A stretch of 64,000 nucleotides of DNA, from positions 1 to 64,000 of the forward strand of contig CANKYZ010000007.1 in NCBI GenBank assembly GCA_947488325.1, given 5' to 3'. Source of the DNA: an uncultured Erythrobacter sp. GTDB taxonomy: Bacteria > Pseudomonadota > Alphaproteobacteria > Sphingomonadales > Sphingomonadaceae. Every line of letters begins with the position of its first letter. Position 1 is the first letter of the stretch. Shown piece by piece: positions 985-10,264 of the stretch. A program made the position numbers and the translations under genes. The notes under the pieces were generated by a model. That model had not been told where the DNA came from. It did not search any database and saw nothing but the letters and a program-made list of their open reading frames with translations.

Positions 985-1369
985 CTGAGTGCCTCCAAAA
1001 ATCCGTCTAATTCAAAATTGGGGCGATTAAGAATTGCTCCCAACTGAAGGACGATTGCCTCGTTGTTTGTGACCAGAATTAGAGAGGAGTGGAGCCAAAA
1101 TTCCTAATCCAGAATTGTCCAGCGTTCTGAAGTTGGAATTCTACAGAATTCTGCAGGATCGAAATGCCTTAAGTCATTGTTTAAAAGCTATTAAATTTTA
1201 TAGCCCATGCGGAGCTGTAGAAACTTTCTATGTACAAGGCCCGATTTGTAGGTATTCAAATGATGCAACCTCATTCAATAACGTAACTTTTGTACTGGGC
1301 TTGGGGGTTTGTTTTGACTGCTTTGGCTGCCATACCTGCAGCGTAACTGTCGCGATTGGGCGGAAGAAA
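985..1369. other. Divergent intergenic region, partly covered by an N-terminal ORF extension
   Basis: This AT-rich stretch separates the isochorismatase-like gene from the regulator. The ORF track lets the regulator start at TTG 1115, but the residues encoded here resemble no domain and are Cys/Phe rich, so it is more likely promoter and leader DNA. No clear operator palindrome was seen. Confidence 0.5.
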
Positions 1370-3640
1370 TTGATCTACCGGTTCGAAAATTTTGAACTTG
1401 ATTGCGAGCACTCAAGTATCTGCCGCGACGGGGTTCCGATCAAACTGGAGCCGCAGGTTTATTCTGTGATCGAACTATTGGTGACGCGACACGGGGAGAT
1501 CGTTTCGCGCGAAGAGCTGTTGGAGCACGTTTGGCAAGGGCGAACGGTTTCCAATAGCGCCATAGACAGTCGCATTCGGACTGCTCGAAAGGCATTGGAT
1601 GACGATGGTCATGCCCAACGCTTGATCAAGACATTCACCCATCGCGGCTTTAAGTTTGTTGGCGATGTCGACGAAAGTCAGCCAACGGCTATCTCTGCCA
1701 GTGACATTCTCGGGCCTGCAATTCAGACGACGGAGGAGCTTGCCAGCACCACTGTTATAGGCAAGCCACCAGTTGACAGTGCGTCACTTGGTTCTCCAAA
1801 AAGAAACCGTCCGATAATCTTGATATTCGTTGCGGTTCTGGCTGCCGTTGGGTTGGGCTTTTTTGCCAATGGCAGGCTTGAAAACGCGCCGACCGATGAC
1901 TCGCAATCAGCGTCTACAGAAAGCAGATTGTCAATCGCTGTCTTGCCGGCCTCGGGCGATTCCGCTGATGAGGATGCAAGACTATTCGCTACCGGCGTTT
2001 CTGAAGAAACCATTGTCCTTCTGGGCGGTATTCAGGAACTGAGCGTCGTTTCACGCTCGTCCTCATTTGCGTTCCGGGATCGGGATTTTAGCGCCGAGGA
2101 ATTGAACGAAGCGCTAAATGTTGATTACCGTGTCGAAAGCACATCGCGAACGATTGGTGAAACAATCCATGTCACCGTCCAGCTAATCGATACCTCGACT
2201 GAATCTATTGAGTGGTCCGAATCTTACGACGTAGACGCAGCCCCGCAAGCTACGGATGCCGGTCAAATTGAGGTCGCACGAAAAATTGTTCTCAATATCG
2301 CCAACAAATTAGGATTATCAGCAGGTGTTCTGGAATCCAAAATTATTTCAGCAGAAGCTTATCAAGATTTTGCGGTCGGACAGGAAGCACTTCTTGACCC
2401 AGATGAAGAATCGATCAATCAGGCAATCGAGTCATTTCGCAAGGTAATAGCCGCTGAGCCTGATTATCTTCCAGCCTATGCCCGATTGTTCGATAGCTAT
2501 TGGGCCGGTGTGAATATCGCCGGCTTTGGCGTCAGCGAAACCGTTCCAGATATGCAGCGCATTGTCCGGCAAATGACTACACTTGCGCCGAATTCGGCCG
2601 AAACTCTAACTGCCGACGGTATACTCATGCAATTTGATGAGCGTGAGGATTACACGAATGAGAAAGTGGTTGATAATTTTAACCGGGCCATAGCTGCAAA
2701 CCCCAACTATGTCTTGGCTCACAAAGAACGGGCCTTCAGGCTAGCGGAAGCTGTCGGCCGGGACGAAGCACTCACCGCGTTTCAAGACGCACTCAAGTAT
2801 GATCCGGTTGCCCCCGACTTGCTTGCTGAATTGAGTTGGTTGCATTTTTCGGCAGGGGATTTTGACGACGCAATAATTACCGCTGAGCGGAACCTGCGTT
2901 GGAACAACGACAGTATTGTCGCCAAAATAGCTATGGCACGCATTTTACTCGGCACCGATGAACAAGCGAAAGCTATTGTGCTTCTGCAAGAGGTGCTCGC
3001 CGAGCAGGGGGAAAATTACGCTGCGCGCCATAATCTGAGACGTGCCTATCTCTATCTTGGAGAATTTGAGAGAGCATTCGAAGTCTCGCCGTCTCCAACG
3101 TTGAAGGCAGTGACGAGTGGATTGATGGGCGATGAAGAACGCGTAAGGGAATTCGCGGGACAAATGCCAGGATTTAGCACCAGCTTAGTCAGTCTCTATT
3201 TCATTGGAGAGAGCCGCCCTTTCCACGACAGAGTCGTACAAGATATCGGCAATGGCAATATTCTGGACCCGGAAGTGCCTCTCTACACATATAATTTGAT
3301 TCGGACCGCGATGGAAGCCGACGTGCTCCGGCAATTTGGCAATCCGTTGCAGAAGCAGGCGACAGATTTGCTCGATGGCTATTATGCTGAAAACAAACCG
3401 GCTGACTTCAGGGCAACCGCTCAATATGCTGGAGCGGTTTCTTATCTCACCTTCAAAGGTGAGTTAGATGAGGCTTTGAAAATTATTGATCAGGCAAATG
3501 AACGCGGCTTTGCTTTTTTACACATATTCGAAATGCCAATGCTCGATCCGCTGACGCGTCATCAGGGGTTCGCCGCGCGGCAGGCGAGGATGCGCGCGCG
3601 GGCAACGGCGATATTGAATGAGGTAGAGGAGCTTTCTTAG
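1370..3640 (+). CDS. CadC-like winged-helix regulator with membrane anchor and TPR sensor domain
   Basis: Transcription regulator with an OmpR-type winged helix (Trans_reg_C) at the N terminus (FENFELD, then the recognition-helix region NSAIDSRIRTARKAL and hairpin wing HRGFKFVG), one transmembrane helix (RPIILIFVAVLAAVGLGFF), a FlgO/TolB-N-like segment beginning LSIAVLPASG, and a long C-terminal TPR array that should be periplasmic. This is the layout of CadC-type one-component sensors, in which the outer part senses and the cytoplasmic part binds DNA. The track start (TTG 1115) adds 85 unconvincing residues; the TTG at 1370, just before IYRFENFELD, matches where such proteins begin and follows GGAAG closely. 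The resulting protein is about 756 residues. Divergent from the isochorismatase-like gene and upstream of a cupin and a hydrolase, its likely local targets. The ligand is unknown. Confidence 0.8.
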   Translation: MIYRFENFELDCEHSSICRDGVPIKLEPQVYSVIELLVTRHGEIVSREELLEHVWQGRTVSNSAIDSRIRTARKALDDDGHAQRLIKTFTHRGFKFVGDVDESQPTAISASDILGPAIQTTEELASTTVIGKPPVDSASLGSPKRNRPIILIFVAVLAAVGLGFFANGRLENAPTDDSQSASTESRLSIAVLPASGDSADEDARLFATGVSEETIVLLGGIQELSVVSRSSSFAFRDRDFSAEELNEALNVDYRVESTSRTIGETIHVTVQLIDTSTESIEWSESYDVDAAPQATDAGQIEVARKIVLNIANKLGLSAGVLESKIISAEAYQDFAVGQEALLDPDEESINQAIESFRKVIAAEPDYLPAYARLFDSYWAGVNIAGFGVSETVPDMQRIVRQMTTLAPNSAETLTADGILMQFDEREDYTNEKVVDNFNRAIAANPNYVLAHKERAFRLAEAVGRDEALTAFQDALKYDPVAPDLLAELSWLHFSAGDFDDAIITAERNLRWNNDSIVAKIAMARILLGTDEQAKAIVLLQEVLAEQGENYAARHNLRRAYLYLGEFERAFEVSPSPTLKAVTSGLMGDEERVREFAGQMPGFSTSLVSLYFIGESRPFHDRVVQDIGNGNILDPEVPLYTYNLIRTAMEADVLRQFGNPLQKQATDLLDGYYAENKPADFRATAQYAGAVSYLTFKGELDEALKIIDQANERGFAFLHIFEMPMLDPLTRHQGFAARQARMRARATAILNEVEELS

Positions 3641-6823: not shown

Positions 6824-7321
6824 TCAATGATCTTCAAAGGTCAGCCGATACCGAATCCACGCCAGTAATCTGTGGCCTCCATTGACGAGGTGATTGGTCC
6901 TTAGCCAAATTCGCGAGCCATTCCCACCGGCCTGTACCTGCCCCCCCTCTTCCGGAGCCCTCAGCCAGCCATCGGCGCTTAACTTATTTGTATTTTCCCG
7001 AACATCCCCCGTCAGTATCAGAAATTCTGCCCCTCGATGTCCGGCCTCCGCATAATTTGCATTAGGCACCATCATCAGGAACGGGACGTTCTTGCCCATA
7101 CCGGCGCACGAGGTAATGGTCGGAATCCCGTTTGCATCAGGTTGTGCCACCTCAGAAAGTGCATGCATATCGAAATGGACACGTTCCGTGTCACGGGGAT
7201 CGCGGTGGCAATCGCGAGATGGCAATCCGCCAATTTGCAGACGCCGCAGCGCCGAACGATCGCGCGAAGTCACCTCAGCACAGGGCACACTCGTTGAGCC
7301 GCGTGGGCACGAGTCGGTCAA
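6824..7321 (-). CDS. ChrR-like cupin protein, N terminus uncertain and possibly decayed
   Basis: The C-terminal half reads as one cupin barrel of the anti-sigma ChrR type (GHRGAEFLILTGDVRENTN, then ADGWLRAPEEG and SRIWLRTNHL). The usual second-motif His is not apparent, so metal binding may be lost. The first 50 residues are Arg/Cys rich and do not look like any domain, and the TTG start has no convincing ribosome site; an internal ATG at 7168 (MHALSEV) is an alternative. It sits just upstream of the amine oxidase and next to a broken fragment on the other strand, so this end may be eroded. A regulatory or binding role is only a guess. Confidence 0.4.
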   Translation of the reverse strand: MTDSCPRGSTSVPCAEVTSRDRSALRRLQIGGLPSRDCHRDPRDTERVHFDMHALSEVAQPDANGIPTITSCAGMGKNVPFLMMVPNANYAEAGHRGAEFLILTGDVRENTNKLSADGWLRAPEEGGQVQAGGNGSRIWLRTNHLVNGGHRLLAWIRYRLTFEDH

Positions 7322-7925: not shown

Positions 7926-8582
7926 ATGAAAAAGACTGATACGAGAAACGTCGCCCTTTGCTCAATCGCTGCGGCAAGCATGGCGTTGCTTTCGGCATGC
8001 GATTCATCAGATTCCGTACCTGAACAACAGCGAGATGCTGTGAGCGAGAACGTTGAATCGAGTGGAATTGTGCAGGCCTCTTTCACTGATGAAGGCGCTG
8101 TATTACAGCCAACAGGCTATCGCGAATGGGTGTTTGTAGGCACTCCTCTTACGCCCAACGCCCTGAATGGCGGTGAAGCTCCGTTTCCTGAATTTCATAA
8201 TGTTTATGTCGAACCGACGGCATTCGCTGCGTTTTCAGAAACGGGTGTATGGCCGAACGGCACACAAATTGTAAAAGAGCTCACAACAGTGCGCGAAAAT
8301 GGCAATGCAGAAAATGGATCTACCTCTGAAGTTAGCGGTGTCGGCTACTTCCAGGGTGAATTTTCTGGCCTGGAACTGACAGTTAAAGACACAGAGCGCT
8401 TCCCAGACGAGCCCGGTGGCTGGGTTTATTACAGCTTCGGTCATAATGCACCGCCTTACGCAGAAACTGCTGAGGCATTCCCGACAGAATCGTGCAACAG
8501 CTGCCATGAAGCAAATGCCGGAGAGACAGACTTTGTCTTTACTCAGTTCTATCCCGTGCTGCGTGCCGCAAATCCCAATTGA
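7926..8582 (+). CDS. Cytochrome P460-family lipoprotein (first of a tandem pair)
   Basis: A 218-residue exported haem protein. The signal peptide ends in a lipobox (LLSAC, Cys25), so it is probably anchored to a periplasm-facing membrane. The body matches the cytochrome P460 family: the strand with GTQIVKEL carries Lys117, the candidate for the Lys-haem crosslink known in Nitrosomonas P460, and the C-terminal CNSCH (190-194) is a c-type haem attachment site. Characterised P460 enzymes oxidise hydroxylamine; other members have unknown roles, so nitrogen chemistry is only a possibility. The next gene is a diverged paralogue starting 11 bases after this stop, and the two are surely co-transcribed. 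Confidence 0.85.
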   Translation: MKKTDTRNVALCSIAAASMALLSACDSSDSVPEQQRDAVSENVESSGIVQASFTDEGAVLQPTGYREWVFVGTPLTPNALNGGEAPFPEFHNVYVEPTAFAAFSETGVWPNGTQIVKELTTVRENGNAENGSTSEVSGVGYFQGEFSGLELTVKDTERFPDEPGGWVYYSFGHNAPPYAETAEAFPTESCNSCHEANAGETDFVFTQFYPVLRAANPN

Positions 8583-8593
8583 GGGTTTCCAAA

Positions 8594-9226
8594 ATGAGCT
8601 GGAAATTATTGGTTTGTGCACCGCTCTTGATCGGGTTGTCTGCTTGTCAGCAGGCAACTGATCAAGGCGATGATGCAAACACTGGTGCTGACCTGACCTC
8701 TATCGAAGGTGGTTGGCCAGCCGATATCGTGTCAGCAACGGGAGACATTTCGCGGCCTGCAGATTTCGAAACGTGGCCAACATTAGGGTCATGGTCGACT
8801 GCGGGTGCGGATGATATCCAAAATGGGATGCATCAAGTCTATGTATCGCCAGGAGGTATTGAGAGCTTTCGTGCCAACGGGACCTTCGCTGACGGTACGG
8901 TTTTGGTCAAAGAAGTTCGCGGCGCAGCCACAGCGGCGCTTACAACAGGCAACGCATCCTACGCGACCGAAAAGCAGGTCTGGTTTGTGATGGTCAAAGA
9001 CGCCGAAGGCCGGTTCCCTGACAATGCCCTTTGGGGCGACGGTTGGGGATGGGCGTTGTTTGAAGCGGCTGAGCCCGACAAACAGGTCGCGCAGAATTAC
9101 ATATTGGACTGCAAGTCCTGCCATATCCCTGCCGAGTCTCAAGATTGGATATATACAGAAGCATATCCGGTCCTTTGGCCTGAAGACGTAGCGCCGGTGC
9201 CAAGTTGGCAGTCCTCTGGCGAGTGA
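8594..9226 (+). CDS. Cytochrome P460-family lipoprotein (second of a tandem pair)
   Basis: A 210-residue paralogue of the preceding gene, starting at ATG 8594; the track's TTG 8579 would overlap the upstream stop. It has a short signal peptide with lipobox GLSAC (Cys18), the strand GTVLVKEVRG with candidate crosslinking Lys106, and haem motif CKSCH at 173-177. The two copies are similar in layout but clearly diverged, and this one has extra aromatic residues (WGDGWGWALF) before the haem site. The pair could be two subunits or two enzymes acting on related substrates. No maturation or electron-transfer partner is encoded next to it. Confidence 0.85.
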   Translation: MSWKLLVCAPLLIGLSACQQATDQGDDANTGADLTSIEGGWPADIVSATGDISRPADFETWPTLGSWSTAGADDIQNGMHQVYVSPGGIESFRANGTFADGTVLVKEVRGAATAALTTGNASYATEKQVWFVMVKDAEGRFPDNALWGDGWGWALFEAAEPDKQVAQNYILDCKSCHIPAESQDWIYTEAYPVLWPEDVAPVPSWQSSGE

Positions 9227-9706
9227 ATTCTAGGTAGATCACCAGAGGACCGCGGAAGACTTTTCCGGTGGGGAACCAAGAGCGGAGCGATTGTTCGTCG
9301 AGTGGGTGTGATAACACTCTCTCGGACGAGCAACGCTTTGTCGGTTTCGGCCATTCAGCGATCGAGAAGAATTAAGGACGCTTTCTTGCACCGCCATGGC
9401 AAGAGAACTCAGCCGGGAGAATTTCGCAAAATCGAACGATGAATTCATGCTCGAAATTCAGGGGCGTAGTTCGACGCGAATATGATGACGGCGTCCAGCT
9501 AAACGCGCGCTGTATTGATCCTCCTCCGTCAAGGCCCTGGAGAAGCGGCGTTTCACAACTGTACGGATTCCGGAATTACGGCAAATTTGAAATCAATCTG
9601 ACGCAGCTTGGTTCAGTGTCGAGATAGAAACACACGCGCCAGCTCTCAATTCGTAATCTCGGAAGCTGGAAATACCCTAAGCCAAACAAAATACGAAGGA
9701 ACGATC
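9227..9706. other. 480-base intergenic region without a supported gene
   Basis: The short ORFs here overlap on both strands, lack ribosome sites and resemble nothing. No strong hairpin was found after the second P460 gene. The last bases (AAGGA before ATG 9707) form the ribosome site of the OsmC-like gene. Confidence 0.5.
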
Positions 9707-10264
9707 ATGCAGGTAGCAACACATTCCGCATTAGTGAACGGCATATCCATCAACGTACTGAGCGAGACCGTTTCTGCCGTAGAAGCCGATCGTGGACTGG
9801 GCTTGTCCCGATTCAAAATCCACAACACTTGGGATGGCGGCACCCGCTCTACGACGACTGTCGGCGACATGTATGCAGCCAAGCAAACAATCGCTCACAA
9901 TGGCGATCACCAGATGAAATCAGATGAGCCGGAAATGCTCTCAGGTACTGATCTCGCCCCCAATCCCGTGGAGCAATTGCTAAGCGCTTTGGCGAGCTGC
10001 GTCGTGACAAGCATTATCGCACACGCAAGCCTAAAAGGCATCCAGATTGACGCGCTAACATCCGAACTTGAAGGCGACATCAACCTGACTGGCTTTCTTG
10101 GTGTCGACGACACAGTATCTAGAGGCTACAACAAGATTGTAATTAAGTTAAAAATCGACACGCCACACAAAGATTTAGATGAAATTCGCTTGCTTTCACA
10201 CTACTCTCCGGTGTTCAACACCATCACCAATTCTGCAGATGTTAGTGTGGTTATTGCAGATTAA
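9707..10264 (+). CDS. OsmC-family protein lacking the second conserved cysteine
   Basis: A cytosolic protein of 185 residues. ATG 9707 with AAGGA six bases upstream is chosen over the track's start 99 bases earlier. The OsmC/Ohr fold is indicated by the region NPVEQLLSALASCVVTSIIAHA, whose Cys98 aligns with the peroxidatic cysteine of the family, and by SHYSPVFNTITNSADVSV near the end. In OsmC and Ohr a second cysteine sits at about the position of Phe170; it is absent here. Members usually reduce organic hydroperoxides with two cysteines, so this one either uses an outside thiol or does something else. It is followed by a strong hairpin. Confidence 0.8.
   Translation: MQVATHSALVNGISINVLSETVSAVEADRGLGLSRFKIHNTWDGGTRSTTTVGDMYAAKQTIAHNGDHQMKSDEPEMLSGTDLAPNPVEQLLSALASCVVTSIIAHASLKGIQIDALTSELEGDINLTGFLGVDDTVSRGYNKIVIKLKIDTPHKDLDEIRLLSHYSPVFNTITNSADVSVVIAD

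Follow-up and report, generated by a model that had tools for sequence, protein, structure and literature searches.

Two adjacent cytochrome P460 lipoprotein genes with differing catalytic residues in an uncultured Erythrobacter represent a widespread conserved gene pair

The window (the whole stretch of DNA analysed here, 64,000 nucleotides in length) carries two consecutive genes on the forward strand, P1 and P2, the products of which were identified as cytochromes P460. The initial annotation had described them as tandem P460 lipoproteins, each with a lipobox, a candidate cross-linking Lys and a CxxCH motif, and this description was borne out, since both carry the sequence pattern, with predicted lipidation, and each matches the Pfam family Cytochrome_P460 (PF16694) at about 97 bits (cut-off 27). 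The features of the locus, with residues related by alignment to the P460 of Nitrosomonas europaea (NeP460), are as follows.

7926..8582, + strand: P1, type A cytochrome P460 lipoprotein of 218 aa (PF16694 match, residue alignment and model)
7926..8000, + strand: P1 signal peptide with lipobox LSAC, Cys25 predicted to be lipidated (sequence pattern)
8274..8276, + strand: codon of P1 K117, equivalent of NeP460 Lys70 (haem cross-link; alignment)
8373..8375, + strand: codon of P1 E150, equivalent of NeP460 Glu96 (distal carboxylate; alignment)
8594..9226, + strand: P2, type B cytochrome P460 lipoprotein of 210 aa (PF16694 match; own clade)
8594..8647, + strand: P2 signal peptide with lipobox LSAC, Cys18 predicted to be lipidated (sequence pattern)
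8909..8911, + strand: codon of P2 K106, equivalent of NeP460 Lys70 (alignment)
8984..8986, + strand: codon of P2 F131, in the column of NeP460 Glu96 (alignment)

P1 has F87 at the position of the cap, H91, K117 in the cross-link column, the distal E150, the haem c motif C190NSCH194 and the lipobox LSA-C25, while P2 has H80, K106 in the cross-link column, W130-F131 replacing the carboxylate, C173KSCH177 and the lipobox LSA-C18; P2 also contains a WGDGWGWA insert and is devoid of a cytochrome c domain. The ATG at 8594 is the best start for P2, a TTG at 8579 that overlaps the P1 stop being less likely. Only 11 bases separate the P1 stop from this ATG, which suggests that the two genes are probably co-transcribed; scans for promoters and terminators gave nothing above chance. 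The two copies are diverged, as had been noted earlier, with 31% identity over 167 alignment columns. The source genome contains no further P460 gene. It also encodes cytochrome c assembly proteins, and in it the products of P1 and P2 are predicted from their sequences to be lipid-anchored on the periplasmic side. Elsewhere in the window, an ORF on the reverse strand (6824-7321) has no Pfam match and appears cupin-like by eye, and a forward-strand gene (1115-3640) encodes a protein of 841 aa in which a winged helix of the OmpR type and TPR repeats give the domain make-up of a CadC-like regulator.

P460 in ammonia oxidisers and methanotrophs can make N2O, and to our knowledge research on P460 has been almost wholly confined to these organisms. 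The occurrence of two P460 lipoproteins outside an ammonia oxidiser, to which the initial annotation had drawn attention, was upheld. A search of the source genome for HAO returned no match, a control search being equally silent, and no NirK, looked for as a route from nitrite to NO, was found over the cut-off in that genome.

The type A and type B assignments were made from overall similarity and not from the catalytic residues; the residue split is therefore not circular. In the alignment to NeP460, all 61 type A proteins have the capping Phe, the cross-link Lys and an acidic residue at the catalytic carboxylate (Glu in 38, Asp in 23). Among 91 type B proteins, Lys is present in 90 and Phe occupies the carboxylate column in 90, with no conserved cap; the single exception is a fragment (L088:7097-7459). 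P1 has the sequence features of an NeP460-like enzyme, namely the fold as recognised by PF16694, the CxxCH motif, the cross-link Lys, the distal carboxylate and the cap. P2 is a cytochrome P460 in the wide sense, with the PF16694 match, the CxxCH motif and the Lys in the cross-link column, but has F131 where a catalytic cytochrome P460 has its distal carboxylate; nor is it a cytochrome c'-beta, in which the Lys is replaced by a hydrophobic residue, as K106 is kept. Oxidation of NH2OH by P460 needs both the cross-link and the carboxylate, and NsP460 (Nitrosomonas sp. AL212), without the carboxylate, is inactive in this reaction (PMC11928373). Taken with this requirement, the residue pattern predicts hydroxylamine oxidase activity for P1 and none for P2. 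P1 and P2 are thus not two versions of one enzyme, and the earlier proposal that they have different jobs is likely to be right. They differ exactly at the catalytic residues, and only P1 would be of the hydroxylamine-oxidase type.

The matches to known structures follow the same division. P1 matches NeP460 in the PDB at 2e-46 and its model (mean pLDDT 81) superposes on the NsP460 structures with a TM-score of up to 0.90 by target length. The best PDB match of P2 to the known P460s reaches only 2.7e-13, and its model (pLDDT 85) gives TM-scores of 0.73-0.75 against NsP460. In a phylogenetic tree of 151 rows and 149 usable columns, built by a quick search and having some long branches and an uncertain deep order, all 77 type B rows lie on one side of a branch with an SH-aLRT value of 95, NeP460 and NsP460 fall within type A, and the P460 of Methylococcus capsulatus (McP460) and cytochrome c'-beta are placed elsewhere, apart from type B. 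Judged by the residues given in a published study, type B would fit neither of the two groups defined there. A recent tandem duplication giving rise to P1 and P2 was rejected, as the two belong to separate supported groups, each common to several phyla.

A scan of named genomes with P2 as the query retained 80 loci, many of the pair loci among them being from metagenome assemblies. A type A gene is present near the type B gene in 57 of the 80, a proportion counted from the type B side, and the paired loci are distributed over five phyla (Pseudomonadota 38, Planctomycetota 10, Acidobacteriota 6, Verrucomicrobiota 1 and Thermodesulfobacteriota 1, with one in another bacterium). The pair is thus not a peculiarity of sphingomonads but is conserved and widespread. 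In 301 genomes of the same order, each of the 12 high-scoring type A genes adjoins a type B gene. The HMM scores, together with the conservation of the pair in distant genomes, exclude chance. Gaps between the two genes are mostly below 120 bp; the order A-B or B-A varies, being B-A in the Acidobacteriota, and at some loci the genes are divergent or separated by other genes. Over 55 pairs, the patristic distances among the type A proteins are correlated with those among their type B partners (Mantel r 0.49, 0/2000 permutations), partly due to the shared history of the organisms.

Each type is also found by itself. Type B occurs without type A in Acidobacteriaceae, Vibrio, Pseudoalteromonas and Pseudomonas, and also on plasmids, while three of the four other type A genes in a class-wide sample of alphaproteobacterial genomes have no type B. 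Neither gene therefore strictly needs the other, and an obligate form of the heterodimer that had been suggested is weakened and unsupported. The pair was not detected in any other searched genome of the window's genus, which marks it as an accessory module. One genome of this genus (G023:C1, 72% complete) encodes a type B protein with a lipobox (L114), no type A gene being detected. P460 genes have been described between insertion sequences, in a Tn7-like element, in Nitrospira moscoviensis (PMC8649781). A search of a literature library found no paper describing the A-B pair.

Membrane anchoring, proposed at the outset for both copies, is consistent with the lipoboxes of P1 and P2 but is not general, as a rough lipobox pattern was found among the relatives in only 21 of 57 proteins of type A and 22 of 84 of type B. 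A further CxxCH (haem c) site is present in 24 of the 84 type B proteins of the 80 loci, and in 19 of these 24 a C-terminal class I cytochrome c was aligned, one being confirmed by Pfam. By inference, these fusions connect type B with electron transfer. The fused cytochrome c is present in close relatives of P2 (L028, L029, L031 and L033) and P2 is without it; no remnant of a lost cytochrome c domain was found downstream of P2. Two long ORFs considered as natural A-B fusions were rejected, one being a type B protein with a different, multihaem extension (L078) and the other an upstream read-through (L085). In five loci (L043, L046, L050, L065 and L074) a cytochrome c'-beta-like protein is encoded as a third neighbour of type A and type B, one such protein matching solved c'-beta structures at 5e-41.

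Neighbouring genes were counted by direct phmmer searches within 3 kb of 62 non-redundant loci, and included LysR (15), 5-aminolevulinate synthase (ALAS, 8), MsrA (8), a lactonase-like propeller (7), DUF417, a relative of RclC (6), globin (5), CcmC (4) and AhpD-like proteins (4). Since most related genomes have one or two copies of MsrA, its presence at 8 of 62 loci is far above chance (about 1e-9, taking 0.5% per locus); in two of the eight it is on the same strand and within 500 bp. An ALAS gene adjoins the pair in several alphaproteobacteria (L036, L043, L052, L083 and L084), where it perhaps provides a dedicated haem supply.

Where P460 genes are borne on plasmids, genes of oxidant stress surround them. 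On one plasmid, MsrB, a redoxin, the pair, MsrA, cytochrome b561 and an AraC regulator are bounded by Tn3-family transposases; a Sinorhizobium mexicanum plasmid carries P460 genes with MsrA, two peroxiredoxins, Dps, HemE and HemJ; an Aquincola plasmid has EgtB, EgtD and MsrB around its P460 genes; and a Pseudomonas plasmid has DUF417, AhpD-like proteins and AraC around P460. The Sinorhizobium plasmid (pEmeITTGR7a, L109) shows six P460-matching places and includes the hemE/hemJ/MsrA/peroxiredoxin/Dps region. The best match of the AraC proteins is RclR and that of DUF417 is RclC, both far below the equivalog cut-offs; RclR of Escherichia coli responds to HOCl and N-chlorotaurine (PMC7464077). 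A near-identical unit of an RclR-like AraC, an AhpD-like protein and a solo type B was observed in Pseudomonas, Ralstonia and Limnobacter and on plasmids (L094-L105), including plasmid NZ_CP156904.1 (L112:4396-6465), with matches on two E. coli plasmids; this unit is mobile.

Most P460 loci have no oxidant-stress gene nearby. In the window, the sole neighbour of the oxidant-stress type is OsmC (9608-10264), 380 bases downstream of P2; no MsrA, LysR or cytochrome c gene lies beside P1-P2, and RclR, RclA, RclB and RclC, the marks of an Rcl regulon, were likewise not found there. The isochorismatase, cupin and FAD oxidoreductase genes of the window were rejected as members of the system, being unseen at other P460 loci. 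Taken together, the neighbourhoods of the relatives point to oxidant stress and haem supply and not to nitrogen metabolism as such.

P1 and P2 would thus form a conserved two-protein haem c module, periplasmic and, in this organism, probably membrane-anchored. P1 is equipped for catalysis and should act by oxidising hydroxylamine or by handling small nitrogen species related to it. The most likely role of P2, exerted beside P1, is either to relay electrons to the cytochrome c pool or to hold a small ligand, NO or another. Detoxification under stress (oxidative, chlorine or nitrosative), and not energy metabolism, is the probable purpose of the module. This reading, in which type A performs redox chemistry on small nitrogen species and type B is an electron relay or ligand holder within a stress-related accessory module, is preferred tentatively and falls somewhat short of being probable. 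In the cross-linked P460s known so far the potentials are very low (PMC11928373), and these give type B no obvious suitability as a relay.

A narrower role for P2, mainly as an NO binder that captures the NO released by P1 from hydroxylamine and so protects respiration, in the manner proposed for cytochrome c'-beta, is possible but doubtful. The replacement of the carboxylate by Phe, without a polar substitute, agrees with it, as do the globin genes adjoining the pair in some loci, the true c'-beta that is the third neighbour in five, and the suggestion in a review that c'-beta may bind P460-made NO (PMC11928373). However, P2 retains the cross-link Lys, unlike c'-beta, and is missing the Phe cap, the cytochrome c fusions suggest electron transfer, and in some of the triplet loci a c'-beta is already available for the NO job.

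We consider it unlikely that the pair reduces oxidants such as peroxide, HOCl or chloramines with electrons from cytochrome c, as a cytochrome c peroxidase does, with hydroxylamine activity only incidental. Such a role would account for the MsrA/MsrB, peroxiredoxin, ergothioneine, Dps, RclR-like and RclC-like genes around the relatives and on plasmids, for the fusion of a class I cytochrome c with type B and for the OsmC gene near P2; it is at variance with the suppression of peroxidase activity by the Lys cross-link in NeP460 (PMC11928373), with the retention in every type A protein of the acid required for hydroxylamine oxidation, and with the lack of a stress gene at most loci and the regulator matches below cut-off. 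That the two are independent genes, adjacent through shared regulation or joint transfer and without joint work, is improbable. The solo genomes, the variable order and the intervening genes or divergent arrangements speak for it; tight adjacency over five phyla, correlated distances and the pairing of all 12 type A genes within the order speak against it.

On the broadest interpretation, type B would be a new functional class, with the A-B pair and its cytochrome c acting as a partly mobile periplasmic detoxifier of reactive chlorine or nitrogen species (such as chloramines, hydroxylamine and NO) in non-nitrifiers; as a whole this is speculative and rather unlikely. Should the stress context hold for the preferred module, P460 would be placed in oxidant defence and the possible biological sources of NO and N2O would be widened. 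A 2025 review regards the function of the P460s with a non-polar pocket as unresolved and raises the question of why several members of the fold are present in some organisms (PMC11928373). A pair of a catalytic and an acid-less P460, often tied to cytochrome c, offers a natural test system for these questions, and it is suited to testing because it comprises two genes with clear residue predictions and has cultured hosts, the sphingomonads Sphingopyxis sp. H053 and H073 being examples.

Comparison with the known systems helps to place the pair. The likeness to the E. coli Rcl (reactive chlorine) regulon lies in the RclR-like AraC and RclC-like DUF417 genes adjoining some P460 genes; the E. 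coli rcl locus, however, has no P460, the regulators of the relatives are 25-30% identical and below the equivalog cut-off, and none is beside P1-P2. McP460 is alike in fold, Lys and CxxCH and differs in its Arg50 cap, Asp102 and separate branch of the tree. The cytochromes c'-beta (McCP-beta and TtCP-beta) have in common with P2 the fold and a hydrophobic distal side, but Phe or Met replaces the cross-link Lys that P2 retains. NsP460 and P2 both combine the Lys with a distal residue that is not acidic, as is characteristic of an inactive 'half-way house', whereas NsP460 has Ala131, the cap Phe76 and a tree position with type A, and P2 has Phe, no cap, the WGDGWGWA insert and a position in another clade. 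NeP460 is the counterpart of P1, and the two agree in fold and, at the sequence level, in the cap Phe, the cross-link Lys and the distal Glu; Arg44 of NeP460 is replaced by His in P1, which adds the lipobox and the adjoining type B partner gene.
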